A DNA stretch of 35,494 nt from Ignavibacteriota bacterium (GCA_003142575.1 PLMS01000110.1:45443-80936); one strand, 5' to 3'. Positions 1 through 31,331 are shown, counted from the first letter of the stretch. Numbers and translations are program-made. Notes: generated from the letters alone by a model not told the origin.

Positions 1-1
1 G

Positions 2-1693: not shown

Positions 1694-1751
1694 ATGCGGA
1701 GCATAGTATGGCCGGAAAGAAGAAATTGAAAAATATTGAAGGATATCGCTT

Positions 1752-3938
1752 ATGAAGCACATCTTCGTTTTTTTTCTATTCGCCTTCATGGGCAACTCCA
1801 TACTTGTTGCTCAAGACACCATCCCGGCAAATCATTCTTTTATACAATATTATGGACGATGGGATATGTCCGATCCTACACAGCCGACGCATGGATGGCC
1901 GGGAGTATATGTCACCGCAGTGTTTCAGGGCACAAGTATCGGTGTGATTACGGACGACAACGCATGCTGGTATAATGTCATCATCGATGATACGCTTACA
2001 AAGAAATTTCATGGGACCGTGTACGGGAAAAATGCTTATACGTTAGCATCAGGCCTCAGGGATACGGTACATACGATACTGTTTACATTGCGCGGGGAAA
2101 CGTCATGGACAAAATTTGGGTTTTATGGATTTATTTTGGACCATGGAAAAACGCTTGCAGCACCTCCTACGAAGCCGGTACGAAAAATAGAATTTATCGG
2201 CGATTCCTATACGAGTGCTTCCGGCAATGAATACATGGGCACGGATGCCGCACCATCTGACTCGACAACAAATATTTATCTTGGATTTGGACCCATTGTT
2301 GCGAGACATTTTGGCGCACAGTATATGATGACGAGCCGAGGCGGCATCGGGCTTGTGCTCGATTGGCAGGGTGTGTATGGCAACTGTATGCCGAACTGCT
2401 ACGACCGAACATTGTATTACTCAACGACACCCAAATGGGATTATTCACAGTATGTTCCCAATCTCGTCGTCGTTTGTCTTGGCTTAAACGATTACAGCGG
2501 TTGGGGAGGATATTCCGCGCAGCCTTCGGAGCAATGTGCACAATACTACCAAACAAAATATCATGATTATATTGCTACGATTATGGGCGTGAATAAGGGC
2601 GCAAAGATTTTATGTGTTGCTCCAAATGGTATCGAATGGCTCAGCACAAATATCAAACAGGTAGTGCAGGAAGAACAGACTGCCGGACATACGAATGTGT
2701 TCTATGGCGCATTCCCATATTTGAACGGGACGTACGTTAATTCGGGCCATCCATCCGTAACACAGCATCAACAAATTGCCGATACGTTGATTTCAACGAT
2801 CAATACGATCGATGCATGGACTCCGTACGTCGGAACGACAAAACCGTACATCACCGAATTGCCTTCTTCTCCGACAACGTCGTACAGCTCATCTTATACC
2901 TTGACGGTGAAGACAAACGCTTATGCGACTATGAAATACAGCACGGAAGATAAACCGTACGATCAGATGGAAAATGTATTTACAACGACCGGGACTCTGT
3001 CACATTCCGTCGTTCTTTCATGTGCGAACGGCAATAGCTACACGTATTTCCTGCGTTGCAAAGATAGTTACGGCAACGCAATGGATACATCTGCCGTGGT
3101 GACCATTGTTGCCGATACGACAAAGACAGCGGTTGTCTGGACCTCGCCAAGTTATGATCATTCCATGTGGAGCAAAGGGAGTGCTCCTCTTGGATATGGT
3201 CCCAGTGTTGCAACGCAGGTTGGGAAAGTGGTAACAGCATATTATTGGCATGCTTTTACTATCGATGGTGCTCCCTCAAGTGCCTCTTGTACGTTATATG
3301 TTAAAGCAAGTGACGGCGCAGTGGTGTATTTGAACGGGTATCAAATAGCAGGTGCCAATCTGTCTGCCAACTCTGGAATAGGGTACTCCACTCTGGCCGA
3401 TAAAGCAAACATATGCGAATTGACGCTTGCCTTTACCAGAGGTACAAGTTATAGCAGACTATTACTAACCGGAACGAATACGATTGCTGTGGAAGTGCAT
3501 ACGGCAAATGCATTGAATGATACTTCAACATTCGATTCGTACCTCTACAATTCATTAAGTGGGACGTATTTCTATTCGCTGGGTTCCGATTGGTATTATT
3601 ATGCCGGCGGTTCTGCTCCTTCGGAGCAGGCAAAAACCATCACTGGAGTGAAGCAAGAGGCAGCCCTTGTTCCCGAGAAGATGGACCTGCTACCCAATTA
3701 TCCGAACCCGTTCAATCCCTCGACGACGATACAGTATCAACTTTCGTCTCGGGGCATGGTCACGCTCAAAGTATATAACATTCTCGGAAAAGAAGTAACA
3801 ACATTAGTGAATGAACAAAAGCCTGCCGGTTCTTACGCAGTTCAATGGAATGCCGGAAAGTTTGCGAGCGGTATTTACTTTATCACTCTTCGTGCGGCAA
3901 ACTTTATGAAAACGACCAAGATGGTTTTGTTGAAGTAA
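1752..3938 (+). CDS. CE2-like acetylesterase (SGNH) with T9SS sorting domain
   Basis: The 728-residue protein starts at an ATG 8 bases after GAAGGA. A signal peptide (about 1-20) leads into a jelly-roll domain (about 25-135), then an SGNH hydrolase with GDSYT (Ser152), SRGGIG, GLND (244-247) and SGHPS (His333). The order jelly roll then SGNH is that of carbohydrate esterase family 2, which deacetylates xylan and glucomannan. An Ig/Fn3-like segment (about 360-455) and a second beta-sandwich (about 460-620, APLGYG and DGAVVYLNG motifs) follow. The tail (about 650-728) has NYPNPFNPST and ends in K-M-V-L-L-K, a type A T9SS sorting signal, so the enzyme should be exported across the outer membrane and probably kept at the surface. 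A shorter, disrupted relative without the extra domains and tail lies at 28844-29929. Confidence 0.85.
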   Translation: MKHIFVFFLFAFMGNSILVAQDTIPANHSFIQYYGRWDMSDPTQPTHGWPGVYVTAVFQGTSIGVITDDNACWYNVIIDDTLTKKFHGTVYGKNAYTLASGLRDTVHTILFTLRGETSWTKFGFYGFILDHGKTLAAPPTKPVRKIEFIGDSYTSASGNEYMGTDAAPSDSTTNIYLGFGPIVARHFGAQYMMTSRGGIGLVLDWQGVYGNCMPNCYDRTLYYSTTPKWDYSQYVPNLVVVCLGLNDYSGWGGYSAQPSEQCAQYYQTKYHDYIATIMGVNKGAKILCVAPNGIEWLSTNIKQVVQEEQTAGHTNVFYGAFPYLNGTYVNSGHPSVTQHQQIADTLISTINTIDAWTPYVGTTKPYITELPSSPTTSYSSSYTLTVKTNAYATMKYSTEDKPYDQMENVFTTTGTLSHSVVLSCANGNSYTYFLRCKDSYGNAMDTSAVVTIVADTTKTAVVWTSPSYDHSMWSKGSAPLGYGPSVATQVGKVVTAYYWHAFTIDGAPSSASCTLYVKASDGAVVYLNGYQIAGANLSANSGIGYSTLADKANICELTLAFTRGTSYSRLLLTGTNTIAVEVHTANALNDTSTFDSYLYNSLSGTYFYSLGSDWYYYAGGSAPSEQAKTITGVKQEAALVPEKMDLLPNYPNPFNPSTTIQYQLSSRGMVTLKVYNILGKEVTTLVNEQKPAGSYAVQWNAGKFASGIYFITLRAANFMKTTKMVLLK

Positions 3939-4032
3939 GGAAAGATCATGGTGAGCCGATAAGCTCAACCGTACTTGATGAATAGTCGATAATGAACGAT
4001 GTAGTAGCACTATTAAAAACAGAGGTGGCTTT

Positions 4033-5238
4033 ATGAAAAAAATATTTTTAAATTTTTTTGCTGTTCTCCTTTTTTGTCCGCTCTTGCATGCGCAAAAATT
4101 CGATAAACTGGCACTGACCCCACCGATGGGCTGGAACAGCTGGAATAAATTTGGCCGCGATATCAATGAAGGATTGATTCGCAGTATCACAGATGCAATG
4201 GATACAAGCGGCATGAAAGATGCCGGCTATCAATATATCGTTATCGATGATTGCTGGCAGGGAACGCGAGACAGTCTGGGATTTATCCATCCGGATCCGC
4301 AAAAATTTCCTTCGGGCATCAAAGCACTTGCCGATTACATCCATTCCAAAGGATTGAAGTTCGGGATTTATTCCTGTGCTGGAATTCAGACGTGTGGGGG
4401 CTTTCCCGCAAGCCGCGGCCATGAATATCAAGATGCAATAATGTATTCGCAATGGGGTGCCGATTATCTGAAATATGATTGGTGCAATACCGACGGGCTA
4501 AATGCTGTCGGCGCCTACACGACCATGCGCGATGCGCTGTATGCGGCAGGCAGGCCCATTGTCTTTAGTTTATGCGAATGGGGAAACAACGATCCATGGA
4601 AATGGGGAAAAGACGTCGGGCATCTCTGGCGTACGACCGGGGACATTACGGCATGCTTCGATTGTGAATTGAATCATGGTACCTGGTCACAATGGGGCGT
4701 TATGAAGATCGCTGAAATGCGCAAAGACATCCGTCAGTATGCCGGGCCGGGGCACTGGAACGATCCCGATATGCTGGAAGTCGGCAACGGTATGAGTGTG
4801 AACGAAGATCGTGCACATTTTTCTCTCTGGTGTATGATGGCGGCTCCGTTAATTTCCGGAAACGATTTAAGCGCCATGAGTACCACCACGAAAGAAATAT
4901 TGATGAATAAAGAAGTGATCGCTGTTGATCAGGATTCGCTCGGCGTTCAAGGATACAAGTATGATTCCAAAGACAGCGTGGAAGTGTGGGTGAAGCCGTT
5001 GATGAGAGACGATTGGGCGATTTGTTTCCTGAATCGTTCTCTACAAAAGCAAAAAGTAGATTTTGATTGGTCAAAAAATATCATTACGGATGAACTATCC
5101 AAACGAACGCTGAACACAAACGAGACAAAATACAACATTCGTAATCTCTGGGTCAAGAAAAATATCGGGACGACAAAAAAGAAACTGACTGCCAAGATCG
5201 CATCGCATGATGTGTTGATGGTGAGATTATCAAAATAA
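4033..5238 (+). CDS. GH27 alpha-galactosidase, exported
   Basis: This 401-residue protein has a good ribosome site (AGAGGTGG) upstream and a signal peptide (MKKIFLNFFAVLLF..LHAQ, about 1-21). GH27/melibiase blocks are clear: TPPMGWNSWN (about 29-38), VIDDCWQ, YLKYDWC with the nucleophile Asp149, WRTTGDI with the acid/base Asp204, and GPGHWNDPDML. A small beta domain closes the protein. It removes alpha-1,6-galactose from galactomannan or melibiose-type sugars. There is no T9SS tail, so a periplasmic site is likely. It is the third gene of a same-strand run behind two esterases, with a 94-base gap, and fits side-chain removal before mannan backbone cleavage. Confidence 0.93.
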   Translation: MKKIFLNFFAVLLFCPLLHAQKFDKLALTPPMGWNSWNKFGRDINEGLIRSITDAMDTSGMKDAGYQYIVIDDCWQGTRDSLGFIHPDPQKFPSGIKALADYIHSKGLKFGIYSCAGIQTCGGFPASRGHEYQDAIMYSQWGADYLKYDWCNTDGLNAVGAYTTMRDALYAAGRPIVFSLCEWGNNDPWKWGKDVGHLWRTTGDITACFDCELNHGTWSQWGVMKIAEMRKDIRQYAGPGHWNDPDMLEVGNGMSVNEDRAHFSLWCMMAAPLISGNDLSAMSTTTKEILMNKEVIAVDQDSLGVQGYKYDSKDSVEVWVKPLMRDDWAICFLNRSLQKQKVDFDWSKNIITDELSKRTLNTNETKYNIRNLWVKKNIGTTKKKLTAKIASHDVLMVRLSK

Positions 5239-5510: not shown

Positions 5511-6962
5511 CTACTTCAACCCTAGTTCCTTGCACATACGATAGAAATTTGAAGGAGCAATTCCCAGCTTTTCTGCTGCATTCGCATCGGAGCTAGATAT
5601 ATTTCGGATATATTTGAAATACTTGAGACGGAATGCTCGTTCCACTTCATGCAATGTTAATGCATGACCAGCGTAGATTTCTTCAAATGCTGCGTCTTTC
5701 GATATTCCGGAACTTTTCAAAATCATTGGATCGCTTACATCTTTCACACTAATATGGTCTGTACAGTTCAAAACCAGGCGCTGGGCAACATTGCGCAGCT
5801 CACGGACATTGCCCGGCCATTTGTAATTCATCAATATCTCTTGCGCTTTTGGATCGATACCGGGCGGTACAATGCCCATATCATCACTAAAATATTCTAA
5901 GAAATGTTTAAACAATACAATAATGTCGTTGCCGCGCTGCCGTAAAGGAACTACATCGATGGGAATGACATTCAATCGGTAAAAAAGATCTTCACGGAAT
6001 CGACCGTCGTTTACTTCAGCAGCAAGATTTTTATTTGTTGCCGAAATAATTCTCACATTTACCGATATACTTCCTGTCCTTCCGATCTTTTCAATTTCCC
6101 CTTCTTGAAGAACCCGCAGCAATTTCACCTGTGCAGGAAGAGACAGCTCAGACACTTCATCGAGAAAAACTGTTCCGTTATTTGCCACTTCGAATAATCC
6201 CAATTTGGTCGTGTTGGCGCCGGTAAAGGCACCTTTCTCGTACCCAAACAACTCGCTCTCCACCAGTTCATGGGGAATGCTGCCGCAATTAATCGGAACA
6301 AATTTTTCATATTTCCTACGACTCTTTAAATGAATATTCCATGCAACCAATTCTTTACCCGTACCAGATGCGCCGGAGATTATTATATTCGCCTCGCTCT
6401 TGGCATATTTTTCTATCGCCTCACGCAGATGGAGCATTGGCTTGGATTCGCCGATGATTTCTTTTGATTGTAATATGCCTTCAATGCTCTGTAGTAACCG
6501 TTTATCAGATTTCAATTTTTGTTTTTCTAACTTCTTTTTCTCGTACGCGTTCACAATACTAAGGATAAAATCTGTCGGCTGGTAGATATACTCTTCGATA
6601 TTTCCGGGATACTTTGTGCAATACCAAAAAGCTCCTGCTTTGAGCAAATTGTTTGCAAAATCGAAATCTGTCGTATTCGTGGTCATTTTAGTGATGACGA
6701 TTATTTGCACTAAAGGATCGAGTTCTTTTATTTTCCTAATCAATTCCTCCCCCCGCAGTCCACCGGATATCTGATAGTCGAGAATAATAACATCATAATT
6801 ATCCGGTTTTTGTTGCAGTTCCTCTAATGCTGCACGACCATTTGATAGAACACTTTCTATCTGAATTTTTGTGGATGAGAGGTTAACGGTATTTTTAACA
6901 CGAGAGACATCAAAGTCTTCGTCATCAACTACCATCACTTTAATAATATTTGTATTAATCAT
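5511..6962 (-). CDS. Sigma-54-type response regulator (copy 1, intact)
   Basis: An NtrC-family regulator of 483 residues counted from the ATG at 6962. An in-frame extension 13 codons upstream exists, but the ATG at 6962 overlaps the preceding kinase stop as ATGA, which indicates translational coupling. The receiver domain (about 5-125) has the acidic pair Asp13/Asp14 and phospho-acceptor Asp62. The AAA+ domain (about 165-400) has Walker A GASGTGKE (197-204), GAFTGA (244-249), Walker B VFLDE (Asp268, Glu269), FREDLFYRLNV and WPGNVREL. A Fis-like helix-turn-helix ends the protein (NAAEKLGIAPSNFYRM). Everything needed to activate sigma-54 RNA polymerase is present. It is the intact partner of the broken copy at 13099-14550 and probably responds to the full-length kinase at 14547-16061. 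I found no convincing sigma-54 promoter in the window. Confidence 0.93.
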   Translation of the reverse strand: MINTNIIKVMVVDDEDFDVSRVKNTVNLSSTKIQIESVLSNGRAALEELQQKPDNYDVIILDYQISGGLRGEELIRKIKELDPLVQIIVITKMTTNTTDFDFANNLLKAGAFWYCTKYPGNIEEYIYQPTDFILSIVNAYEKKKLEKQKLKSDKRLLQSIEGILQSKEIIGESKPMLHLREAIEKYAKSEANIIISGASGTGKELVAWNIHLKSRRKYEKFVPINCGSIPHELVESELFGYEKGAFTGANTTKLGLFEVANNGTVFLDEVSELSLPAQVKLLRVLQEGEIEKIGRTGSISVNVRIISATNKNLAAEVNDGRFREDLFYRLNVIPIDVVPLRQRGNDIIVLFKHFLEYFSDDMGIVPPGIDPKAQEILMNYKWPGNVRELRNVAQRLVLNCTDHISVKDVSDPMILKSSGISKDAAFEEIYAGHALTLHEVERAFRLKYFKYIRNISSSDANAAEKLGIAPSNFYRMCKELGLK

Positions 6963-7745
6963 AACACCTCTGCGTTTCTCATCACTATAGTAAACCGGCA
7001 ACCCACCGATTCAAGATTTTCGACATCGAGCCGCCAATCGCACTTCCCGACTGCAAGTTGATGTGCTATATAACATCCATACCCTGAATGTGACTCGATA
7101 AGTTTTTTCGTGGTTTCATGTTCCAAAAACAATTTTTTAATACCCTTTTGACCGATCTCTAATAGTTCCGGGACAATCCCTTTTCCATTGTCCGATATAT
7201 ATATGTAAGAAATATTATTCTCACGGTCGTACTTCGTTTGAATCTTGATCGTAACAAAATCTACCCTGCAATGATCGATACTATTCTGGATAAGCGGCTC
7301 GAGTATTTCCCATACGTTGAATTCATTGACACGAATAAACGGCAGAGAACGATCCAGATCAATTTTCAGCTCAAACATTTCATTTTTACTCGAGACACGC
7401 ACGAAGACATTATCTACGATAAATTCGATCACCGAATTCACATCGGTATGAAACATCGGATTCACAATCGTATTAATATCCTGATTGTACCATTTCATAT
7501 CATAAATAATTCTTGAAATGAAATTTGAATATGTATTCACTCTTTTTTTCAGTTCAATAAGATTACGGGTATCCATCTTTCTCACATCATCTTTAATGAA
7601 ACCCATAATTTTTTCCGCTTTATGATGAGTATGGTAAATACGTTTCGTAAACAACGATTCTTTTTCGAGACGAATTTGGTTTTCCAGGTTTTCCTCATGC
7701 TCGATGAACAATTCTTCCTGCACTTTATTTCGCTCACGGACAGTG
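5511..7745 (-). repeat. Direct duplicate, copy 1 of a 2235-base kinase/regulator segment
   Basis: Bases 5511-7745 align without net gaps to 13099-15333 (constant offset 7588, equal length 2235). Checked anchors are the regulator stop codons, the ATGA junctions at 6959-6962 and 14547-14550, and the CGGACAGTG end points. There are many silent differences, so the duplication is not recent. Flanking bases are unrelated at both ends. Confidence 0.9.
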
Positions 7746-7759: not shown

Positions 7760-8262
7760 TGATGTAATTCGAAATTATCGCAAATCGATGCCAATGTCAA
7801 GGTAAGAGATCAGCTATCTTTTTTCCGTTCAACTCCACCCGGTTGAGAAATATTCATTCATTTGCAGCACAGAGATTACAGCAAGCCGAATTCTGCTGAA
7901 TATTCCTGCCTTCCGCGAACCATGAGAATAATTAAAAAGAATAGAGACTATAAGATAGAACTAATAAGATAAAGTGCTCAGTTGAAATGATTTCAACTTT
8001 GCAAAGTAATTCGCCATTATTGAATCACCAGATGTCTAGTACAGATTCCATCAAGTAGCGCGTACCAGAAACCAATTGAACGGTAGAAGAAATAATTCTT
8101 TAAAAGCGAAATTACACCGTTCGCATCCAATAGAAAGGAACAAATGCTCCCTAAGTGCTGTTTCATTATTCGTAAACCAAACGGCTTTTTCATCCGCTTA
8201 TTTATGAGTTTGTTATTAGATTCTTTTTTAAATAAATTACAGTTGTTCGTTAGATAAGAAGT
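7760..8262. other. 503-base divergent intergenic region
   Basis: This AT-rich gap separates the truncated kinase (-) from the membrane protein at 8263 (+). I see no remnant of the missing kinase N-terminus and no convincing gene. A minus-strand ORF at 8017-8367 overlaps the start of the real gene and shows no recognisable family. The promoter of the 8263-12890 cassette should lie here, but no strong -35/-10 pair stood out. Confidence 0.5.
7980..7998. promoter_or_regulatory. 19-bp palindrome, possible operator
   Basis: AGTTGAAA-TGA-TTTCAACT is a perfect 8-bp inverted repeat with a 3-base spacer. It sits in the divergent gap about 265 bases before the 8263 start. The form fits a dimeric regulator site. 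No U-tract follows on either side, so a terminator is less likely. Confidence 0.35.
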
Positions 8263-10113
8263 ATGAACCTGCATAACAAAAACCGCAAATTCGACAAAAT
8301 ATTTGTTTGGATTCAAGAATGCCTTGTTCTTGTGGCATGCTTCTTCTACTTGTATCTTTATGTTCACCCCATACTAATTCTTGAAGCGCTCCCGCCCGTC
8401 TTTTTATTCGACACCAACTTTTTCATTGGATTTCTGCAAATTCCCGGTGGAATGACTGATTGGCTTTCGGCGCTTATGATGCAATTCTGGTTTTCTGATT
8501 TTGTAATTGCGTTATTCTTAACATTCTGTTTTTGGATTATCACATTTTTGACAAGAAAATGGATAGAGACACAGACTGAAGGCCGACCGATCCACACAAT
8601 CCATCTCCTTCCAGCCGGTTTATTGCTCGTCCTCCACAGCCAGTATTATTTTCCCCTCAGCATCACGGTGGCATTGATTATCAACCTGGTAATTTTGAAT
8701 CTGTTCATTCGCTGGGCCCCCAAACATCAAGCCCTCCGAGCAGCGTCAGGTTTGATTGTTTCTGTTCTGTTGTTTTGGGTTACGGGGGGTGCCTTCCTGC
8801 TGTTTATGATTCTATGCGGAGTGAGCGATCTTTTTTACCGAAAACAGATTGCAATTGGTCTTCTCTTATTAATACTTTCACCTGTTCTGCCGTACGCAGC
8901 ATCCGCATCGATTTTTCTTGTTCCTCTCAAAGAGGCTTATCTTCACAACCTTGTTTTTGAAATCGTCACAAATTTTTGGATCAACACGTACTTCCTCCCT
9001 GCATTGTTTCTGATGATTCTGATCATCATATCGCTTGCGAAAGTTCCAGCAATCCGAAAACCTTTTAGGAAAATTACAAAGCTTGCATTCATCTGGAAAT
9101 GTGGCGCGGGGACGCTCCTTATTGCCGGTGTAACATTATTGTGGGGACAAAAATCTTACAACAGAACCGCACAATTTATCCTACAATTGAACCGGGATGT
9201 GAAAGAGAATCAATGGATGAACGTGTTAGAATTGGCTAAACATTGGCCGTCCGTGAAGCCATTGTTCTCATTTCAGACCAATATTGCATGTTATCAATCA
9301 GGGATACTGCTTGATAGAATGTTTGCCGTTCCGCAGCCACTCGGAACTCTCGGCCTATTGATGGACTTTGACTGGTGTTCGGCTTCCCCTGAGGCGACAA
9401 GCAACCTATATTGGATGTTGGGATTGATAACCGAATGTCAACACTGGACTCACGAAGCATTTGAACAGAAAGGTTCTACTCCAGCCCTTTTAAAACGGCT
9501 TGGTATGATTTATATGTTGAAGGGTGATACTGAAGCAGCCAAAAAATATTTTTTGAATTTGAAAAATATTCCTTTTCATGGAAAAACTGCTGAAGATCTC
9601 TTACGGCTTAATGAAAATCCCTCTGCATTAGCTCAAGACCCTGAGGTAAATTATTTTCGATCGCTCATGCCGGTACATAATATCGCATTAACAGGGAATT
9701 CATCTCTTTTACAATTGGAAATTCTGTTGAATCGGAATCCAAAGAATAAAATGGCGTTCGAATACATGATTGCTTACCATTTATTGACCGGAAATTTGCC
9801 GGAACTGATGAATCATATTCCGGATTTTCATGCTCTTGGCTATACGCAGCTGCCGATCCACGTTCAGGAAGCAATGTTAGTTTTTGCATCGCAGACGCCA
9901 AATTTCAATGTGAATATATTATACTCGATGGTTCTCCGGAACACGTACGAACGTTTTGTCGCATACCAACAAATTCTTCAGAAATATCGGGGGAACATAA
10001 GTGCCGCGAGACAGGAGTTGCAAAGTCAATTTGTTGATACCTATTGGTATTATCTGATGTACGTCAGACCTGGCTCACGGTCATCTGAGGAGCAACATGA
10101 ATATCCACACTAA
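8263..10113 (+). CDS. Polytopic inner-membrane protein resembling DUF6057
   Basis: The 616-residue protein has about eight hydrophobic helices in its first half (roughly 17-34, 79-97, 114-128, 133-149, 160-185, 196-220, 242-259, 280-294). The second half (300-616) is soluble and helical, with TPR-like character around residues 410-440 (GMIYMLKGDTEAAKKYF). From memory it resembles the uncharacterised DUF6057 membrane family of Bacteroidota; I could not verify this. No catalytic motif is evident. Its last 17 bases overlap the start of the haem-motif lipoprotein gene, so the two are translationally coupled. A joint role at the cell envelope is likely but its nature is unknown. Upstream AAGAAG is a weak ribosome site. 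Confidence 0.75.
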   Translation: MNLHNKNRKFDKIFVWIQECLVLVACFFYLYLYVHPILILEALPPVFLFDTNFFIGFLQIPGGMTDWLSALMMQFWFSDFVIALFLTFCFWIITFLTRKWIETQTEGRPIHTIHLLPAGLLLVLHSQYYFPLSITVALIINLVILNLFIRWAPKHQALRAASGLIVSVLLFWVTGGAFLLFMILCGVSDLFYRKQIAIGLLLLILSPVLPYAASASIFLVPLKEAYLHNLVFEIVTNFWINTYFLPALFLMILIIISLAKVPAIRKPFRKITKLAFIWKCGAGTLLIAGVTLLWGQKSYNRTAQFILQLNRDVKENQWMNVLELAKHWPSVKPLFSFQTNIACYQSGILLDRMFAVPQPLGTLGLLMDFDWCSASPEATSNLYWMLGLITECQHWTHEAFEQKGSTPALLKRLGMIYMLKGDTEAAKKYFLNLKNIPFHGKTAEDLLRLNENPSALAQDPEVNYFRSLMPVHNIALTGNSSLLQLEILLNRNPKNKMAFEYMIAYHLLTGNLPELMNHIPDFHALGYTQLPIHVQEAMLVFASQTPNFNVNILYSMVLRNTYERFVAYQQILQKYRGNISAARQELQSQFVDTYWYYLMYVRPGSRSSEEQHEYPH

Positions 10114-11680
10114 TATCAAAGCGGCAATTTTCTGGAGTTTGTATATTCTGGTTCTCGTTCTTTGTACGGGGTGTTCGAAACCGGAGAAGAGAGCAGATGT
10201 CCAATCTCTCGGCAAGCCTGCGAGCCTTCATCCGGATTATAGCGGAATTGTCGTCCCACCGAATATCGCTCCATTGAATTTTTTCATTAAAGACACCGGC
10301 GAAGAGTTTATTGTTCTCATTCATTCTAAACATGGCGATCCCATTCGGATCCACAGTGTTTCAGGGACCATTCAGATTCCAATGAATTCATGGAAACACC
10401 TGCTCGCAGAAAATCTGGGTGAGCAATTGATCTATAATATTTTTGTGAAAAACCAGGCCGGTCAATGGTCCCGGTTCGACTCCGTGGTGAACCAAATCGC
10501 AAACGAGAACATCGACAGTTACTTGGCGTATAGGAAAATCGGGCCATTGTTCAACCAATGGAAGAAAATGGGTATTTTTGAGCGCTCCCTTGAAAGTTAT
10601 GACGAACAACCGGTGATGTTCAACCAGCTTACAACATCACAAAATTGCATGAACTGTCATAACTTCCTGCAGAACAAAACGGATCGCTGGCTTATGCACA
10701 CGCGTTTTGGTCCGGGAACATCCATGCTCTTAACGATTAATGGTATAGTAAAAAAGATCGACACGCGGACTCTGTTTAACAAGGGACCCGGCGGATATCC
10801 TGCCTGGCACCCATCCGGCGAGCTGATTGCGTTTTCGGTAGGTCCGCCGCTGCAGTTCTTCCACACAACAGGTGAAACCCGTGACGAGCTTGACCGCTCC
10901 CTGGATATTATTCTCTATGATATTCGAACGAATACAGTGACCACCATTCCACAAATATCGAGCAAAGAACGAGTTGAAGTATGGCCGGCCTGGACACCGG
11001 ATGGCCGGTACCTCTATTTTTGCAGCGCCCCGAAAGTTCAAACATTTTATAAGAAAACCAAAACGGGCGAAGACACTTTGTTGTACGATAAAATTCAATA
11101 TGATCTCATGCGTATTTCGTACAATCATCAAAATGGAACCTGGGGAGAACTTGAAACCGTTGTCTCTTCGAAAGAACTTGGATTGAGTATTGCCGAACCC
11201 AAGGTATCGCCCGATGGCCGGTTCCTTGTCTTCACCGCATCTCAATACGGTTCGTTCCCTATTTTTCATTCCAGCGCTGATTTGTATTTGCTCAATTTAA
11301 CAAATGGCCGGCGGGAGAAGTTAGCCTTGAACAGCGATCGAGCCGAAGGGTATCATTCCTGGTCGAGTAATAGCCGATGGCTTGCATTTTCGAGCAAACG
11401 AGATGACACCCAATTCACCAGATTATATATCAGTCATATTGATTTATTGGGAAACGCTTCGAAGGCGTTTATCCTTCCACAGAAGGATCCTTTGTTTTAT
11501 GACTCGTATCTAGAGATATACAATGTACCGGAATTAATTAAAGAACCTGTCCGAGTAAGTCCGCAAACACTGGCTACGGCTGCTTACTCCGATGCAACTC
11601 CTGCGAAATTAGATTCGCTTGTGATCCAGCGATTGAGCGCCGAAAAGACAACATCTTCTCAGAGCGAACCTAGCCGCTAA
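10097..11680 (+). CDS. Lipoprotein with CxxCH haem motif and TolB-like beta-propeller repeats
   Basis: The 527-residue protein starts inside the preceding gene behind GAGGAG (10087-10092). A lipoprotein signal ends in L-C-T-G-C, giving lipidated Cys26. A beta-rich domain (about 45-130) is followed by a single C-M-N-C-H motif (Cys184, Cys187, His188), the c-type haem attachment signature. From about residue 220 there are PD40/TolB-type propeller blades: YPAWHPSGELIAF, VWPAWTPDGRYLYF, EPKVSPDGRFLVF and YHSWSSNSRWLAF. The protein should be membrane-anchored in the periplasm or on the outer membrane. Genes of this type in Bacteroidota carry the same NCxNCH block preceded by a Y-D/F-D-E segment (from memory). 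Function is unknown; redox sensing or binding of a polymer by the propeller are both possible. No cytochrome c maturation gene is in view. Confidence 0.8.
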   Translation: MNIHTNIKAAIFWSLYILVLVLCTGCSKPEKRADVQSLGKPASLHPDYSGIVVPPNIAPLNFFIKDTGEEFIVLIHSKHGDPIRIHSVSGTIQIPMNSWKHLLAENLGEQLIYNIFVKNQAGQWSRFDSVVNQIANENIDSYLAYRKIGPLFNQWKKMGIFERSLESYDEQPVMFNQLTTSQNCMNCHNFLQNKTDRWLMHTRFGPGTSMLLTINGIVKKIDTRTLFNKGPGGYPAWHPSGELIAFSVGPPLQFFHTTGETRDELDRSLDIILYDIRTNTVTTIPQISSKERVEVWPAWTPDGRYLYFCSAPKVQTFYKKTKTGEDTLLYDKIQYDLMRISYNHQNGTWGELETVVSSKELGLSIAEPKVSPDGRFLVFTASQYGSFPIFHSSADLYLLNLTNGRREKLALNSDRAEGYHSWSSNSRWLAFSSKRDDTQFTRLYISHIDLLGNASKAFILPQKDPLFYDSYLEIYNVPELIKEPVRVSPQTLATAAYSDATPAKLDSLVIQRLSAEKTTSSQSEPSR

Positions 11681-11693
11681 CCCTTGGAACTTA

Positions 11694-12890
11694 ATGATTA
11701 AACGTGCAATCGAAATATTTCCCTCCTTTAAAATATTTACAACATCGCTTCAAAACCAGCTGTATATCACGGCATCAGTGACCCGGCACGAGACAGATGC
11801 CGAACGAACTGCAGAAGAAATGTATAACAAGATCGCCGATCTCTTATCCAATTCTTCGAGCCAAATTATCCTTGAACGGTGTTTCGGTAATATCGATTTT
11901 CAAACTAGCCTTCTCAAAAAACGAAATCACGCATTTCGCACCCATTCAATAGAAACGAATACTCCGGTAACGTATGTGGAGGGAGCATCGTGCTATGAAT
12001 GCAAATTTTCTGGAGTCCAGATCAGGGCATTGAAGGCGGCACCGGAAACCCGGATCCGGACAATTATGGACGAAGGAATTTCCAAAGGACGTGCGTGGAA
12101 TACCGATGGTTCTACATTCTTCCTTCTTCATGATATTAACGGGGGGAAATCGCACAATGGCGAGCATCGGGATCGAAAGACTCAATCCGAAATTATGTTT
12201 CGTCAAGCTGAAAAGATACTCCGCGCTGAAGGGGCTGCATATCAGGATGTGGTTCGGACATGGATATATATTTCGAATATCTTAGATTGGTACGACGATT
12301 TTAATGCCGCGAGGAACAAGTTCTTTTCAGAGTATGGGATCATCGGGAACGGGAAATCTCAGAGTCAGGCAGAACAGATATATCTTCCCGCGAGTACCGG
12401 GATCGAGGGCAGAAGTCCTTCGAATCTTCCCACGACGATGGATGTCTTCGCAGTTCATCGCTCGCCGGAAAGTACCATTCAAATCCATCCCCTCTACGGC
12501 ACCAAACAACGTTCCCCGCTTCGTTACGGTTCGGCATTCTCGCGTGCGGTGGTGATCAAAGATTCTGAAAGTAAACTGATTCTCGTATCAGGCACTGCTT
12601 CTATCGATGAACAGGGAAACAGTGTCTTTATTGGTGATCCGGAGGCTCAAATCCGTCACACCCTGCAAGTGATTTCTTCATTGATCGCAGAAGAAGGTGC
12701 AACGCTTCAGGACCTTTGCGAGACAACACTCTTCCTCAAACGACGACAGGATATGGCGGTCTATCAATCGATAGCCGAAGAACTTGGGATGACGAATATC
12801 CCTTCCGTCAATGTCGTGGCAGATGTCTGCAGAAGTGAATTGTTGTTTGAACTCGACGCTGCTTTTATTCTATCGAAAGAAAAACCGTAA
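11694..12890 (+). CDS. Tandem Rid (YjgF/YER057c)-fold protein
   Basis: The 398-residue protein begins 13 bases after the lipoprotein stop and is probably the third gene of that operon. The C-terminal domain (about 280-398) is Rid-like: LVSGTASIDEQG, QIRHTLQVISSLI, LQDLCETTLFL, NIPSVNVV, and an Arg in VCRSELLFELDA at the place of the RidA substrate-binding Arg. A second, more diverged Rid-like half (about 90-210) contains the segment RTWIYISNILDWYDDFNAARN. Two Rid domains in one chain also occur in FkbO/Hyg5-type chorismatases, so a chorismate-related activity is an alternative to imine deamination. No signal peptide is seen, so it is cytoplasmic, in contrast to its two envelope neighbours. 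Confidence 0.8.
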   Translation: MIKRAIEIFPSFKIFTTSLQNQLYITASVTRHETDAERTAEEMYNKIADLLSNSSSQIILERCFGNIDFQTSLLKKRNHAFRTHSIETNTPVTYVEGASCYECKFSGVQIRALKAAPETRIRTIMDEGISKGRAWNTDGSTFFLLHDINGGKSHNGEHRDRKTQSEIMFRQAEKILRAEGAAYQDVVRTWIYISNILDWYDDFNAARNKFFSEYGIIGNGKSQSQAEQIYLPASTGIEGRSPSNLPTTMDVFAVHRSPESTIQIHPLYGTKQRSPLRYGSAFSRAVVIKDSESKLILVSGTASIDEQGNSVFIGDPEAQIRHTLQVISSLIAEEGATLQDLCETTLFLKRRQDMAVYQSIAEELGMTNIPSVNVVADVCRSELLFELDAAFILSKEKP

Positions 12891-13098: not shown

Positions 13099-14550
13099 CT
13101 ATTTCAACCCAAGTTCTTTACACATACGATAGAAATTAGAAGGTGCAATGCCGAGCTTGTCGGCGGCGTTGGCATCGGAACTCGAAATACTCCAGACATA
13201 TTTAAAGTATTTCAGCCGAAAATTCTTTTCCATCTCCCGTAACTTCAGCACCTGACCCGTATACAGTTCTTCAAATGATGAATCCTTTGAGAGAGGGGAA
13301 TTCTTGAGGATCATCGGGTTGCTTACTTCTTTCACTCCAATATGATCGGCATTATTGAGAACGAGACGCTGAACGACATTGCGGAGCTCACGTACATTCC
13401 CGGGCCATTTGTAATTCATGAGGATCTCCAAGGCTTTGGGGTCAACCGTTGGAGCAGGAATTCCCATATCGTTGCTGAAGTACTCCAGGAAATGATTGAA
13501 GAGAAGTATAATATCTTCTCCCCGCTGCCGGAGCGGGACAACATCAATGGGGATGACATTGAGACGATAAAAGAGATTTTCACGGAATCGGCCTTCGCTG
13601 ACTTCGGCCGCGAGATTTTTATTCGTCGCCGTAATCACCCGCACGTTGACCGACATGCTGCCGGTCCTGCCGATCTTTTCAATTTCTCATTCCTGAATCA
13701 CCCGCAGTAGTTTCCCCTGTGCCGATAACGGTAATTCGGAAACTTCATCGAGGAAAATGGTGCCGTTGTTCGCGATCTCAAACAAACCGGATTTTGTCGC
13801 AATGGCCCTCGTAAACGATCCTTTTTCATGTCCTAACAATTCGCTCTCCACCAGTTCTTGGGGGATACTTCCACAGTTGATGGGAATGAATTTTTCATAG
13901 CGGCGCTTGCTTTTCAAATGTGCATTCCAGGCGACGAGCTCTTTTCCAGTACTGGATCCCCCGGTAATCAGAATATTCGCATCGCTTTTTGCATACTTCT
14001 CAATTGCCTCCCGCAGCTGTTGTATCGGTTTTGATTCTCCGATAATTTTCTTTGACTCAAGCATGCTTTCTATACTCTGCAGCAGCCTCTTATCGGATTT
14101 CGACTTTTGCTTTTCCAGCCGTTTCTTTTCACACGCGTTCACAATACTCAAAATAAAATCTGTCGGCTGGTAGATGTATTCTTCTATATCGCCGGGATAT
14201 TTTGTACAGTACCAAATTGCGCCGGCTTTTATGAGGTTGTTCGCAAATTCAAAATCTGTCGTATTGGTCTCCATTTTCGTAATAACGATGATCTGAATAA
14301 ACGGATCCATCTCTTTTATTTTCCTAATCAATTCCTCCCCCCGCAGTCCACCGGATATCTGGTAGTCGAGAATGATAACATCGTAATTATCCGGTTTACG
14401 CTGCAGCTCTTCCAACGCTGCACGCCCGTTCGATAGAACATTTTCTACCTGAATTTTTGTGGATGAAAGGTTAACGGTATTTTTCACCCGAGAGACATCA
14501 AAGTCCTCGTCGTCAACCACCATCACCTTAATAATATTCGTCGTAATCAT
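13099..14550 (-). pseudogene. Sigma-54-type response regulator (copy 2), broken by in-frame TGA
   Basis: This is a colinear copy of the regulator at 5511-6962, starting at the ATG overlapping the kinase stop (ATGA, 14547-14550). Codon 288, a Gly (GGG) in copy 1, is TGA here (13687-13689), while the reading frame continues unchanged on both sides. The upstream piece (287 residues) keeps the receiver and half of the AAA+ domain; the downstream piece (to 13099) keeps the arginine-finger region and the Fis-like helix-turn-helix. Other damage fits relaxed selection: the sigma-54 contact loop GAFTGA is GSFTRA, and the P-loop reads GGSSTGKE instead of GASGTGKE. A full-length activator cannot be made without read-through. 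A short receiver-plus-partial-AAA protein might still be translated. Confidence 0.9.
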
Positions 14551-15333
14551 AAGACCTCTGTATTTCTCATCACTATGGTAAACCGGCAACCCGTCGGTTC
14601 CAGATTTTCAACATCGAGCTGCCAACCGCACTTACCGACTGCAAGTTGATGCGCTATATAGCATCCATACCCGGAATGCGACTCGATAACTTTTTTCGTG
14701 GTTTCATGTTCAAGGAACAATTTTTTTACACCCTTTTGACCGATCTCTAATAGTTCCGGAACAATCCCTATTCCATTATCGGATATATAGATATACGAAA
14801 TATTGTCTTCACAATCGTACTTCGTTTGAATCTTGATCGTGACAAAATTTATTCCGCAATGATCGATGCTGTTCTGGATAAGCGGCTCAAGTATTTCCCA
14901 GACTGTGAATTCATTGACACGAATAAAAGGCAGAGAACGATCCAGATCAATTTTCAGCTCAAACATTTCATTCTTACTCGAAACCCGCAAAAAGACATTA
15001 TCGACGATAAATTCAATAACTGAATTCACATCGGTATGGAACATTGGATTCACAATCGTGTTAATATCCTGATCGTACCATTTCATATCATAAATAATTC
15101 TTGAAATGAAATTTGAATACATGTGCACCCTTTTCTTCAATTCATTGAGATTACGGGCATTCATCTTTTTTACATCGTCTTTAATGAAACCCATAATTTT
15201 TTCGGCCTTGTGGTGCGTATGGTAAATACGTTTCGTAAACAGGGACTCTTTTTCAAGACGAATTTGTTTTTCGAGATTTTGTTCATGCTCGATAAACAAT
15301 TCTTCCTGCACTTTATTCCGCTCGCGGACAGTG
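13099..15333 (-). repeat. Direct duplicate, copy 2 of the 2235-base kinase/regulator segment
   Basis: This pairs base for base with 5511-7745 at an offset of 7588. The shared segment begins at the regulator stop codon and ends inside the kinase gene just after its second membrane helix. The remainder of the kinase and the binding-protein gene exist only beside this copy. Confidence 0.9.
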
Positions 15334-16063: not shown

Positions 16064-17368
16064 CTACCTTCCTGTCGTCAAATTCTTTTCTGATTCAATT
16101 GCAGCCTGAACACGGCGAAGAGCTTCGTTTACAGGGATGTCACCCTTGATGGCAAGTGCAAAATAACGGGCCATGATCTTCGAGTACTTTGTATAATTTT
16201 CCTGGAGTGGTCGATGCACTCCGCATTTTAACAATTCTTTGCTTTCTCGAATTTCGGGATATCTGTTCAGATAGGTCGAATCATCATAGAATGCCTTTAT
16301 CACGGGATAAAAACCGCCGGTTCTGTAAAAAACTTCCTGCGCCTCATTACTCAATAGGTATTTAACGAAATCGATCACCGCGCCCTTTTTTGTACTCGCC
16401 TTTGAAACCATAAGATTCCACCCTCCAAAAAGAGAAGTAGGCGTACCGCCATCCGGAAACGGTAAGAGTGTTTTTCTTAACCTGCTTTGTTTGAATGTAT
16501 CTATGGGAACATAGGAAAAGTCTTTGTCATAACTTGTCCAGCCGCGAAGGAATAAACCGTCATGGCGTATAAAATATTCATAACTTGGCGTATCGGTAAA
16601 GTCGCTCACGTCAGGCGGCGTAGCCTTGTCGCGATGCACCAAATCCACTAAAAGCTGCAAAGCCCTCTTCGCTTCCGGCGTATCGAAACGAAAGCCGATT
16701 GTTTCAAAGTATTGAGGTTTGAGACTTAAAAGTATTTCGATATAACTGCAAATCATTCCCTCATAATCCGCTGCCGGATAAATAAAATAAGGACCATGCC
16801 AATTAAATCGTTTTTGATACGATAAAAATTTTGACCAGGTTATTCCGCGGGACAGTTCGTTCATCAACCGTTTGCCGCCGGGCAGTTTTTTTAGCAAATC
16901 TTCCCGATAATACATGACGCCCTGCACAAGAAAAAGCGGAACGGCCACCAGTTCCCCTTCGTGATAACACGTTCGCAATGCAGGTTCAATGAGCCTGTCT
17001 CGCTCAGCAACGGTGAAATATTTGCCAAGCGGTTCGCACCATTTAGTAAAACGATGAACCCAGATGAGGTCTACGGCAAGTAAATCGATCGCATCATCTT
17101 CACCCCGAAGAGAACGGGCAAGAATTTCCTTCCGCGTGTCTGTACTAAAATCCGACATCGGGAAATCGATCGGCACAACTTTGATCGATCCGGCATGTGT
17201 CGCATTATATCGGTCAATCAAAATGCGATGCGCTTCTGTTAACCGTTCCGCAAAATAGATCTCAATCTCTTTTTTTTGCGGGCGATTCGGGTAAACATAA
17301 TATATTGCCACATAGAGCACTATGATAGCACTAAAGAGACTGACTCCCCATATTTGCTTCGCATTCAT
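16064..17368 (-). CDS. Membrane-anchored family 1 sugar-binding protein, probable sensor partner
   Basis: The 434-residue protein has an uncleaved-looking N-terminal helix (about 7-27) and then an extracellular solute-binding fold of family 1. Recognisable blocks are IDLLAVDLIWVHRF, GELVAVPLFLVQGVMYYREDLL and TSLFGGWNLMVSK. Such proteins usually serve ABC sugar importers, but no permease or ATPase gene is in the window. It is instead fused into an operon with a histidine kinase (two-base gap) and a sigma-54-type regulator. The arrangement suggests that it binds an oligosaccharide in the periplasm and presents it to the kinase sensor domain. The ligand is unknown; mannan oligomers are the guess from context. 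Confidence 0.85.
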   Translation of the reverse strand: MNAKQIWGVSLFSAIIVLYVAIYYVYPNRPQKKEIEIYFAERLTEAHRILIDRYNATHAGSIKVVPIDFPMSDFSTDTRKEILARSLRGEDDAIDLLAVDLIWVHRFTKWCEPLGKYFTVAERDRLIEPALRTCYHEGELVAVPLFLVQGVMYYREDLLKKLPGGKRLMNELSRGITWSKFLSYQKRFNWHGPYFIYPAADYEGMICSYIEILLSLKPQYFETIGFRFDTPEAKRALQLLVDLVHRDKATPPDVSDFTDTPSYEYFIRHDGLFLRGWTSYDKDFSYVPIDTFKQSRLRKTLLPFPDGGTPTSLFGGWNLMVSKASTKKGAVIDFVKYLLSNEAQEVFYRTGGFYPVIKAFYDDSTYLNRYPEIRESKELLKCGVHRPLQENYTKYSKIMARYFALAIKGDIPVNEALRRVQAAIESEKNLTTGR

Positions 17369-17687
17369 TTCTGATCTAATCTTCTAAGAATAATTTTAAA
17401 GATGACTTCATTACTATGTCCAAGGCATCGCTCATGTTTATCGATAGCGCATCGCAAAGATTACGATGTAAGTGCGGAGAGTATTTGCTCCAGCCTCTTC
17501 ATATGAATTGAGCAATTCTTATATTGCAGTACATTTATGTTATGCCGTCATGGTTTGGCACAACAATATTTACTTCTTTTTTCTTCCATTCTCAACAGTT
17601 TAAATAGTGAAAAAAAGTTTACCTTACAACATGTTCCCCTCTGTCGAGTCCATTATTTTCTCCTCAGGGCTCCGGCGAAAGTTCATG
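17369..17687. other. 319-base gap upstream of the sensor operon
   Basis: This lies between the epimerase stop (17688) and the binding-protein start (17368), both on the minus strand, and should hold the sensor-operon promoter. No long coding frame is supported. A plus-strand TTGGCAC (near 17554) resembles half of a sigma-54 site but lacks the -12 half and points away from the operon. I see no strong hairpin. Confidence 0.4.
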
Positions 17688-19202
17688 TCATCGAGCCAAC
17701 GATTTCTTTTTTAGCCTCGTAATACAATTGATGAGCGCCCGCGAAGTATGATAGTTTGCCTTCCAGACCGACGCTTTCGGATAATACTTGATGTCCGGCA
17801 CCATATCAGCACCCCCCCAATACCAGCTTCCATGTTCCTGATCAATAAGATATTTTTCGATATAAGAAAACTGACGACAAAATTTATCATAGTACCGCAT
17901 TCCATCATCCGGAAATAGTTCAGACATCATCAAGAATGAATTGAGTGCTTCCACTTGCGACCACCATTCCTTGGTTTTCCTTATGATTGAAACAGGACCA
18001 TCGACGGTGAAGTAATATCCGCCATCAAAAAGCCCGCCATGCTCTTGATCCCATCCATCGTTTAAAGTGTGGTCGACCATTTTCTTCGCGATTGTAAGTG
18101 TAACGGTATCAAGCTTCAATCCCAATGTTTCTGAAGCATCCAACATTAAGTACGCTGTTTCCACATCATGGCCGAACGAAACATGATCGTATTCATAATT
18201 TTTTTCTCGAACTACCGAATTGGAATCACGATACGAAACCGGTGTCCAATCACTTTGAAAAAACAATACCATATATCCTTTTTTTGTTGTAATCACATCG
18301 CGGACAATTTGGAGTAATGAAGCTAGGCGACCTTTCACAATGGTATCGGGCCATACCTTGTAAAGTTCAGTAAAAGCTTCAAGTATATGAATCGTTGAGT
18401 TCTGATCTTTCGGTGGTGCGCCCCTGTAACCTTCTTTCAATGGTGTTCCATCTCGCTGTAAGAATTGAAAATAACCACCGAAGGAATAATCGTAACTGTG
18501 CTTCTCAAGCCAACGAAATGTTTCTTTTGCTAACTCCAATGCAACGGTATCGCCGGACGCATGATAATAGGCAGCGAGGCCATAAATGGCAAAAGCGTTA
18601 CCGTACGCTCGTTTGATAATAGTACCGCTTTCTTTAATTGGTTCGCCATATCTATCCACCAAATCATAAAATCCTCCATATTCTTTATCCCACATTTTGT
18701 TTTTTAGAAATATGAAACCATGATCGGCAATTTTTAGAAGTGTCGTGTCTTTTTGAAAATAATGCGTGGCATTTGCAGTAGACCAAACGTGTCGTGCCTG
18801 CGTTACGATCATTTTGTTCTGAGGGCCTTCCAACTCCCACTTATAATTTATGTCGCTAAAAAACCCGCCGTATACCGTGTCAATGGAGAGAGGGTAAAAT
18901 TTTGCAAATTCATCTTTAAGTAAACGCTGCATTTCATAGTAAATGGTATCTCTGCTGGGTTGATCTGCGCATTGTGAATTGTCAATTCCCGGTAACTCAG
19001 CCATATCCATTCCATCCGAAACATCTGCGACACACAAATCCTCGTGAAGTTTCAATATATGGGTATTCTCTTCATGAGAAGAGGTTTTTATCTCTCTAGA
19101 GGTATATCCCTTCTGTGATTCTTGTGCATATTTTTCTTGAGGGAAAAGAAAGGGAGTAAAAGTAATGAATGCACTGAGGATGAATGTTAATCCATTTTTC
19201 AT
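17688..19202 (-). CDS. AGE-family epimerase (cellobiose/mannobiose 2-epimerase-like) with signal peptide
   Basis: The start is taken at the ATG 19202, which has GGAG at the right distance; an upstream in-frame GTG (19214) overlaps that ribosome site and is unlikely. The first 25-30 residues form a signal peptide, followed by about 60 linker residues and then an alpha6/alpha6-barrel of usual length (about 400). Conserved parts are VTQARHVWSTANA, YGGFYDLVDRYGEP, SFGHDVETAYLM (catalytic His in GHDxE), KEWWSQVEALNSF and the C-terminal YHTSRAL. Cellobiose/mannobiose 2-epimerases turn mannobiose into mannosyl-glucose, which GH130 phosphorylases can cleave. Those enzymes are normally cytoplasmic, so the export signal is unusual. 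It ends in TGA, showing that TGA is a normal stop here. A 16-bp hairpin precedes the gene. Confidence 0.88.
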   Translation of the reverse strand: MKNGLTFILSAFITFTPFLFPQEKYAQESQKGYTSREIKTSSHEENTHILKLHEDLCVADVSDGMDMAELPGIDNSQCADQPSRDTIYYEMQRLLKDEFAKFYPLSIDTVYGGFFSDINYKWELEGPQNKMIVTQARHVWSTANATHYFQKDTTLLKIADHGFIFLKNKMWDKEYGGFYDLVDRYGEPIKESGTIIKRAYGNAFAIYGLAAYYHASGDTVALELAKETFRWLEKHSYDYSFGGYFQFLQRDGTPLKEGYRGAPPKDQNSTIHILEAFTELYKVWPDTIVKGRLASLLQIVRDVITTKKGYMVLFFQSDWTPVSYRDSNSVVREKNYEYDHVSFGHDVETAYLMLDASETLGLKLDTVTLTIAKKMVDHTLNDGWDQEHGGLFDGGYYFTVDGPVSIIRKTKEWWSQVEALNSFLMMSELFPDDGMRYYDKFCRQFSYIEKYLIDQEHGSWYWGGADMVPDIKYYPKASVWKANYHTSRALINCITRLKKKSLAR

Positions 19203-19224
19203 GACTCGCTCCACAAGGAATAGG

Positions 19225-19269
19225 ATTGGATAACCGATGAGAGATATCGATCTTCATCGGTTATCCAAT
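19225..19269 (-). promoter_or_regulatory. 16-bp perfect stem-loop in the epimerase leader
   Basis: ATTGGATAACCGATGA (19225-19240) and its exact reverse complement (19254-19269) enclose 13 bases. It lies between the GH5 stop (19295) and the epimerase ribosome site (19209-19212). No U-tract follows in the minus direction, so an mRNA-end stabiliser or processing element between the two genes, or a protein-binding palindrome, is more likely than a simple terminator. Confidence 0.55.
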
Positions 19270-19294
19270 GGATTTTTAATGCGTCTAAAAATGA

Positions 19295-21505: not shown

Positions 21506-21550
21506 TGCTGTACTCCATGGCTAATAATGAAAATCCAGAATCCTATGGAA

Positions 21551-21592
21551 ATAACAAAAGTAGCCGACAAGTGTTTACAGATACTTGCCGGC
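21551..21592 (-). terminator. Rho-independent terminator after the beta-helix gene
   Basis: On the minus strand GCCGGCAAGT (21592-21583) pairs with ACTTGTCGGC (21572-21563), ten pairs with one G-U, around a 10-base loop. CTACTTTTGTTATTT follows directly. It lies 38 bases after the stop at 21630 and before the GH5 start at 21505. It could end or attenuate the TonB receptor/beta-helix transcript. Confidence 0.7.
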
Positions 21593-21629
21593 CACTCAGA
21601 AAAGCGACTACTATGTTACAGCGTACTGC

Positions 21630-24362: not shown

Positions 24363-24389
24363 AAAATAACTCCTATATGTTTGTGAAAG

Positions 24390-24408
24390 AGTATAGTGGT
24401 TTTATACT
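24390..24408. other. Small inverted repeat between receptor and beta-helix genes
   Basis: AGTATA-GTGGTTT-TATACT is a 6-bp perfect inverted repeat in the 68-base gap between the TonB receptor stop and the beta-helix start. It may be a weak RNA hairpin that sets relative expression. The short arms could occur by chance. Confidence 0.25.
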
Positions 24409-24430
24409 GCTACAATTACCGAACTCATAC

Positions 24431-27481: not shown

Positions 27482-27590
27482 ATATCTTCTCCTGATGGGT
27501 ATTTTTCATTGTGTTAAATTATTTATGAAAAATTTATAAATTTCGATTTTTTTCTATCAGAGCGTTAAATGTAAGAAAACCTCAATGAGT

Positions 27591-27600
27591 GACATATGTC
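27591..27600. promoter_or_regulatory. Palindrome GACATATGTC with nearby partial copy
   Basis: GACATATGTC is a perfect 10-bp palindrome. A related ACATATGACA follows at 27611-27620, so the centres are about 20 bases, or two helical turns, apart. That spacing would suit two dimers bound on one face. It lies about 110-140 bases before the receptor start. Confidence 0.3.
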
Positions 27601-27750
27601 CTTAATTCTAACATATGACATCGTTGTTGGTAACCTTTTTCGAGGTATTGAACTCATTTAGCAATCCACAAATAGTGCCAAAAAAAACCACTTTGCACCC
27701 CTTTTTTTATCAAGGAAATGGCATTTTTATCATTTCTTGTAAAGAAATAA

Positions 27751-27767
27751 TTTATCAATTCGATAAA
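27751..27767. promoter_or_regulatory. 17-bp inverted repeat TTTATC-N5-GATAAA
   Basis: TTTATC-AATTC-GATAAA is a perfect 6-bp inverted repeat with 5-base spacing. It sits between the receptor and the aldo/keto reductase remnant, 46 bases beyond the latter's stop. It is operator-like, but chance occurrence in AT-rich DNA is possible. Confidence 0.25.
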
Positions 27768-27813
27768 CTCATATTATTCTAATAAAACCATAGGATTTAA
27801 CGTTGAACTTGTC

Positions 27814-28813: not shown

Positions 28814-28843
28814 AGATTTCTTTCCTCGTCAGCACATCCACCG

Positions 28844-29929: not shown

Positions 29930-29969
29930 ATTTTATCTCGTTGACAAATAAATTGCCAATCAACCATTT

Positions 29970-31055: not shown

Positions 31056-31331
31056 CGCTTCCTCACTAAAAAAGTTCGTTTTGATTCCCGTTCAAGTAAG
31101 TCGTTGTTGTAGATTGAGAATAATCTCCTTTTCCTTTTTCTATCAAATATTATGCCCTTTAAATTGATTGGCATTTCATTTCGATAATAAACTTACCTAT
31201 GCAACTTTTTCTAAATGCAACCTGAACATTTTTATAAGACCTGTATTAGCATAAATATATTCATTGATATTCAAGGCTTTTAATAATCTTCTATTTTTTA
31301 ACGGTAAGATACATAAGTAAAGGGTGCGAAA

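Follow-up and report, generated by a model that had tools for sequence, protein, structure and literature searches.

A DUF6057 membrane protein and a haem-motif propeller lipoprotein form a near-obligate gene pair, often in glycan loci, joined in Ignavibacteria by a chorismatase-like protein

Three adjoining genes of an Ignavibacteriota bacterium raise the question of what a membrane protein (gene A), a lipoprotein with a haem-type motif (gene B) and a Rid-like protein (gene C) might do together. The genes lie in a stretch of 35,494 nucleotides (GCA_003142575.1 PLMS01000110.1:45443-80936), here called the window, and their features are collected in Table 1. The reading frames given in a preliminary description of the window are exact, with A and B overlapping by 17 bases and C starting after a gap of 13. 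The same description proposed that the trio is an undescribed envelope redox or sensing system. For A and B, this proposal survives both of the tests that could have refuted it, namely whether the genes occur together and whether the CxxCH motif is kept in homologues, while the redox or sensing role itself is what we infer. Our main reading, to which we assign a probability of roughly 0.4, is that A and B are obligate partners in an envelope complex whose propeller carries haem c, that this complex has a part in redox traffic or in sensing at glycan loci, and that C is an optional supplier of an aromatic compound. A second complete trio is present in the same genome, where it fills a separate 5.1-kb contig.

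Table 1. Location of the three genes, their main parts and the flanking repeat copies in the window
Feature	Position	Strand	Remark
Gene A, 616 aa: protein of the inner membrane, family DUF6057 (PF19529), ending in a TPR-like domain	8263..10113	+	
Membrane part of A, about residues 15-298, including the conserved loop PGG...QF at residues 61-75	8305..9156	+	
TPR-like tail of A, residues 300-600	9160..10062	+	
Gene B, 527 aa: lipoprotein with Ig-like domain, CxNCH motif and TolB-like propeller	10097..11680	+	
Lipid-anchor cysteine of B, residue 26	10172..10174	+	kept by 99% of 74 homologues
C-M-N-C-H haem c motif of B, residues 184-188	10646..10660	+	in 91/91 homologues
Gene C, 398 aa: protein with two domains, of the Rid / chorismatase fold	11694..12890	+	
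V-C-R-S-E-L-L-F-E of C, residues 378-386	12825..12851	+	HMMER alignment to 5AG3 chain A
Left regulator repeat (2.24 kb), with an intact sigma-54 response regulator and a truncated histidine kinase; flank, outside the module	5511..7745	-	
Right regulator repeat, with a response regulator interrupted by an in-frame stop and part of an intact histidine kinase reaching 16061	13099..15333	-	

Gene A matches the Pfam family DUF6057 with an E-value of 1.6e-96 and 324.9 bits, against a curated cut-off of 29.8, and the alignment covers model positions 10-568 of 569. It is thus a whole-model match above the cut-off, by which membership of the family was judged. The AlphaFold model (mean pLDDT of 76.5) has about eight long helices followed by a helical-repeat tail that starts at residue 300, for which structure comparison gives TPR proteins as the best solved matches. 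The Pfam match and the structure model bear out the preliminary description, which had A as a DUF6057 protein with eight helices and a TPR-like tail. The family-average charge pattern favours a tail on the outside, that is, in the periplasm, whereas the helix count of the AlphaFold model would place it inside. These two indicators disagree, and the periplasmic side is probably the better, if uncertain, assignment. Weak DUF6057 matches elsewhere in the phylum fall below the cut-off and were set aside; the frames listed for them look like unrelated proteins, several being multi-pass membrane proteins. Of 124 genomes of the Bacteroidota family f55, 108 carry A, and a single genome can have as many as nine matches. 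Our literature search, which had most subscription journals outside its reach, returned no paper mentioning DUF6057.

The loop PGG...QF, which follows the first helix of A, is among the most conserved membrane parts of the protein. This loop and the succession of helices (TM1, then a loop containing a pair of short helices, then TM2 onward) are observed anatomy that presumably resembles the architecture of GT-C glycosyltransferases. On this basis A could be a membrane glycosyltransferase of a divergent GT-C type to which a TPR tail is attached, having B as its cofactor. However, no GT-C-type match to A was found by sequence search, and the structure comparison, filled by TPR domains, covered mainly the tail of A. 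We consider this assignment highly improbable, the least likely of those discussed here.

Gene B combines the anchor cysteine, an Ig-like domain, the CxNCH motif and a propeller with PD40 repeats (Pfam, 4.4e-20). The anchor cysteine, the single motif and the repeats bear out the earlier view of B as a lipoprotein with a lone CxxCH plus TolB-like blades, and the motif lies ahead of the propeller. Conservation of the motif had been chosen beforehand as a check, and CxxCH, always in the form CxNCH, is present in every one of the 91 homologues of at least 300 residues, which come from three phyla (Ignavibacteria, Bacteroidota and Planctomycetota); they were drawn partly from overlapping loci, so that closer to 70 of them are distinct (74 were used for conservation). 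A recount with a wider profile adds two A-adjacent B-type genes without CxxCH. One of them is a divergent copy of 430 aa, which at L133:5729-8971 follows a divergent A (229 bits) and adjoins an intact A-B pair.

An invariant CxNCH with its histidine is the signature of haem c attachment, and on the strength of the motif B is predicted to carry a covalent haem c. His 238, 256 and 420 of B are invariant or nearly so and are candidates for the second haem ligand. Three features expected of a c-type cytochrome are present: a conserved CxxCH, an export signal in the form of the conserved lipid-anchor cysteine, and an assembly system in the genome, with three Cytochrom_C_asm matches. Genes for c-type cytochrome assembly also occur in all 62 well-assembled f55 genomes and, being found in nearly all genomes, are uninformative as a discriminating test. 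As to the location of B, the surface-export signal of Bacteroidota lipoproteins consists of acidic residues following the anchor cysteine. In 68 of 73 homologues of B, none or one of the five residues at this place is acidic, and such a signal is therefore not suggested.

The best structural match of the B propeller is TolB of the Tol-Pal system (2w8b, Z of 26.4 over 274 residues, rmsd 3.0), and the likeness is also detected by Foldseek (2hqs, E 4.6e-14), so that a TolB-like propeller fold can be assigned. Unlike TolB, B is a lipoprotein, carries the haem c motif and pairs with DUF6057, and it scores 35.9 bits against the cut-off of 343.15 of the TolB equivalog model (NCBIfam TIGR02800). The next family after TolB is the N-terminal propeller of hydrazine synthase alpha (5c2v, Z of 23.1 over 295 residues, rmsd 3.9), in which the alpha-I haem residues His587 and Tyr591 fall outside the range that is matched by B, 55-445. 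The idea that B is a relative of hydrazine synthase alpha, raised by the HZS-like genes beside homologues of C (see below), was rejected, as the profile comparison with HzsA-like proteins gave a probability of 2.3%.

The strongest rival to our reading is one in which the complex is kept and the haem is denied. A and B would then be a non-redox accessory for glycan handling, with B acting as a periplasmic propeller that binds carbohydrate or protein, the CxNCH holding a structural metal or forming a disulfide, and A serving as a scaffold or a transporter-like protein. It is consistent with the likeness of B to TolB, which is a protein-docking propeller, with the stretch around CxxCH being modelled as a strand at low confidence, and with the fact that lipoproteins beside SusC/SusD are commonly glycan-binding. 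It has to face the retention of CxNCH, including the histidine, in all of the sequences above, as well as the cytochrome c assembly genes in the window's own genome and in the 62 f55 genomes, and we regard it as somewhat unlikely.

The pairing of A with B is the most regular feature of the cassette. Among the 70 distinct A genes of the loci covered, 62 are followed by B on the same strand, 54 of these with an overlap or a spacing of at most 20 bases. The remaining eight A genes include two weak matches (24 bits) and several that are partial or lie at contig or locus ends; for at least two A genes (L094 and L132) no adjacent B was found. Across 123 genomes of f55, both genes are present in 105, both are absent from 15, A is without B in 3 and B is never without A (Fisher p 1e-16, a value that ignores relatedness), and the three genomes that have A alone are all incomplete. 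Tandem A-B pairs duplicate and are passed on as units, and the distances of A and B correlate with a coefficient of 0.917. Since linked genes give matching trees even without contact, this correlation reflects co-inheritance more than binding, and the complex of A with B is put forward here as a putative one.

The surroundings of the trio suggest where such a complex could act. The window contains, at 1-5238 and 16064-32729, SASA and CE2 esterases, a GDSL esterase, GH27, GH5 and GH130 enzymes, a cellobiose-2-epimerase-like gene, T9SS proteins, one of them with CBM35, and a TonB-dependent receptor, and by this gene content it looks like an acetylated galactomannan utilisation locus. The mannan-type setting was overlooked in the preliminary description, as were the recurrent ties to SusC/SusD and glycoside hydrolases and the chorismatase likeness of C. 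Among 76 neighbours of A-B pairs in Bacteroidota, SusC- and SusD-type families lead, and GH130 (3), GH26 (2) and GH28 (2) also occur. In two loci (L041 and L104), A-B-A-B arrays are accompanied by GH26, GH130 and an MFS transporter for sugars; A-B is found beside GH130 in L037 and L044 and together with GH28 and GH106 in L091. The first two loci place A-B directly beside the genes of beta-mannan polysaccharide utilisation loci (PULs), which are GH26-GH130-transporter operons. Described mannan loci are, in contrast, defined by hydrolases, SusC/SusD and transporters, and we found no paper that names DUF6057. The glycans served would be beta-mannan, pectin and others, to judge from the genes nearby. 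Some A-B pairs adjoin an ABC transporter or housekeeping genes, and a glycan locus is hence not universal. A link to the 3-keto-glycoside pathway was also considered and dropped, as two PF06439 genes among the 76 neighbours are too few.

A-B thus appears to be a previously undescribed accessory module of PULs. In this way DUF6057, a family of unknown function, gains a near-obligate haem-motif partner and a setting in which it is met repeatedly. Should B indeed carry haem, PULs would hold a redox component that is absent from current models of glycan uptake, which comprise hydrolases, SusC/SusD, transporters and regulators.

The trio in the window is enclosed by regulators on the opposite strand, and the duplicated pair described earlier proves to be a direct repeat of 2.24 kb with 80% identity. 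In the left copy the kinase lacks its N-terminal half and the regulator is intact, whereas in the right copy the regulator has an in-frame stop and reads GSFTRA where the left one has GAFTGA. This leaves one intact kinase, on the right, and one intact regulator, on the left. It is conceivable that the module senses redox state or a ligand on behalf of this sigma-54 two-component system, which may in turn control the mannan locus, because the regulators directly flank the trio on both sides and the intact kinase adjoins a solute-binding protein. However, the closest relative of the trio (L032/L100), whose A is 88% identical to that of the window, has no flanking regulator pair, judged by gene sizes, and other A-B loci mostly have different neighbours. 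In addition, a search of the region upstream of A gave no sigma-54-type site, the count of such sites in the window being that expected by chance. A sensor of this kind is therefore very unlikely in our estimate.

Gene C had been described as a tandem Rid protein. The two Rid-like domains stand, but C turns out to belong, as a distant member, to the chorismatase fold with its two domains, and is not simply a tandem RidA. It matches PF01042 (Ribonuc_L-PSP, 3.8e-18) and, weakly and below threshold, FkbO_Hyg5-like_N, and its second domain is similar to RutC/RidA. A profile built from 12 C proteins retrieves Hyg5 (5AG3, 1.4e-17) and FkbO (4BPS, 2.4e-15), both before any single-domain Rid protein. 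C aligns with these chorismatases over most of both domains, and in the HMMER alignment to 5AG3 chain A, Cys379, Arg380 and Glu386 of C correspond to Cys327, Arg328 and the catalytic Glu334 of Hyg5. Cys327 steers Hyg5 towards 3-hydroxybenzoate. The aligned residue is Ser in the 5A3K chain and Ala in FkbO. Glu386 and Arg380 are invariant in the 12 homologues, so that the catalytic glutamate of chorismatases and its adjoining arginine are both retained. In Hyg5, it is Glu-334 that protonates chorismate (PMC7170507). Unlike FkbO and Hyg5, C is about 60 residues longer, has an unaligned N-terminus and scores 55.8 bits with the chorismatase model NCBIfam TIGR04444, far below the cut-off of 325, and it is therefore filed as chorismatase-like rather than as a chorismatase. 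Fused Rid (RidA/YjgF) proteins likewise have two Rid-like domains; such fusions were noted as rare and omitted from a survey of the Rid family (PMC4433059). In contrast to them, C has chorismatases as its closest solved relatives. We thus view C as a distant relative of chorismatases, predicted from its aligned residues to be of the 3-hydroxybenzoate-forming type.

The occurrence of C together with A and B depends on the lineage. A-B is the near-obligate pair, C accompanies it in Ignavibacteria and in a few Bacteroidota and Planctomycetota, and in Bacteroidota C usually lies elsewhere, so that the trio expected from the preliminary description holds in part. All seven full-length C genes found in Ignavibacteria (six above 500 bits, plus that of L103) are beside A-B, and C is present at 7 of the 9 A loci that can be judged. 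The gene order is A-B-C in the genus of the window and C-A-B in another genome (G039) and in a Planctomycete (L040), whereas in L037-L039 C is found between a short A and B; C is also with A-B in L093. In the tree of C, in which some trio rows are labelled as other because duplicate loci had been merged, the Ignavibacterial and Planctomycete trio copies form one clade, and the copies of L037-L039 belong to a Bacteroidota clade. This placement implies either that A-B acquired C on two or more occasions or that C was retained while the genes were rearranged. In L100, directly upstream of the intact A-B pair with the 88% identical A, a decayed fragment of C with two stops is seen at about 7870-8085 (G622:C72:14870-15085).

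Most of the C genes in f55 lie away from A-B, and many A-B loci lack C. By presence in the genomes of f55, C matches A-B less well than A matches B (97/8 against 7/11, relatedness ignored). That A-B can do without C is in line with another explanation, according to which C is functionally unrelated, an ordinary Rid-type imine/enamine deaminase co-transcribed by chance, as its PF01042 match and the RutC/RidA similarity of its second domain would also allow. Such an explanation leaves aside the full-length alignment to chorismatases with their catalytic residues, the joining of A-B by C in differing gene orders and from separate C lineages, and the adjacency to A-B of every full-length Ignavibacterial copy. 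On balance, we find it unlikely.

The f55 copies of C that lie apart from A-B show two conserved contexts. The first (L109-L113, L121 and L136) is an iron/haem-type cluster of imelysin, a di-haem oxidoreductase, a porin, a mono-haem CxxCH protein of 240 aa, C, hemerythrin and LuxR. In the second (L114-L119, L122 and L123), C stands between a propeller and di-haem protein, preceded by IclR, and an HZS_alpha protein with two CxxCH motifs (HZS_alpha/FGE/NPCBM), followed by a ResB/CcsA cytochrome c assembly protein. The propeller and di-haem protein weakly matches the model of the hydrazine synthase beta-gamma fusion, with 104.8 bits against a cut-off of 1250. Co-located homologues of hydrazine synthase alpha and beta-gamma are reported mainly from Planctomycetota and a few other phyla (PMC12758564). 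Overall, 22 C loci of f55 outside the trio were sampled, and in 16 of them a CxxCH gene is next to C, against about 14% expected, which is an enrichment among related genomes and not 16 independent events. The count leaves out L135, in which the CxxCH gene lies at a distance of two genes from C; the C gene of L123 escaped the ORF scan and was located separately. L109, L111 and L112 have second, tandem copies of C, and these do not adjoin a CxxCH gene. Exceptions to the adjacency are L120 and L137-L140. Some homologues of C are beside non-haem genes, namely those for a carbamoyltransferase, FeoB or a penicillin-binding protein, and in the Ignavibacterial family f11 relatives of C are near carbamoyltransferases or FeoB. 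The linkage of C to haem c proteins in several settings provides a testable prediction about the purpose of chorismatase-like proteins.

According to our main reading, A would be anchored in the inner membrane and would present its TPR platform, probably on the periplasmic side. B would carry one covalent c-type haem and dock with its propeller on the TPR part of A. The resulting complex would most likely pass or sense electrons in the periplasm, a step that could support the uptake or processing of glycans via the neighbouring SusC/SusD or TonB-dependent system. C, as an optional cytoplasmic partner, may be a chorismatase-like enzyme that supplies a small aromatic compound used by haem-c envelope proteins. 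We found no literature that joins DUF6057, a haem propeller and chorismatase-like parts. A more specific version, which we hold to be doubtful, is that glycan loci contain a new kind of module for electron transfer in the envelope. In it, a propeller lipoprotein with a single haem c would dock on a TPR protein of the inner membrane, and a hydroxybenzoate-type aromatic from C would tune or feed the module. The uptake or cleavage of polysaccharides would in that case include a redox step not known so far.

Two further observations concern the neighbourhood of these genes. In f11, a CxNCH motif, a PD40 propeller and TPR repeats occur in one chain (L127:2608-4716 and L126:16513-18810), a natural fusion of B-like and TPR parts that adjoins C in L127 and lies about 6 kb from C in L126. 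The existence of such fusions counts in favour of the main reading. In five loci (L038, L041, L044, L093 and L104), a DUF4369 protein of 200 aa is encoded just upstream of A, and it may be a fourth member of the cassette in Bacteroidota.
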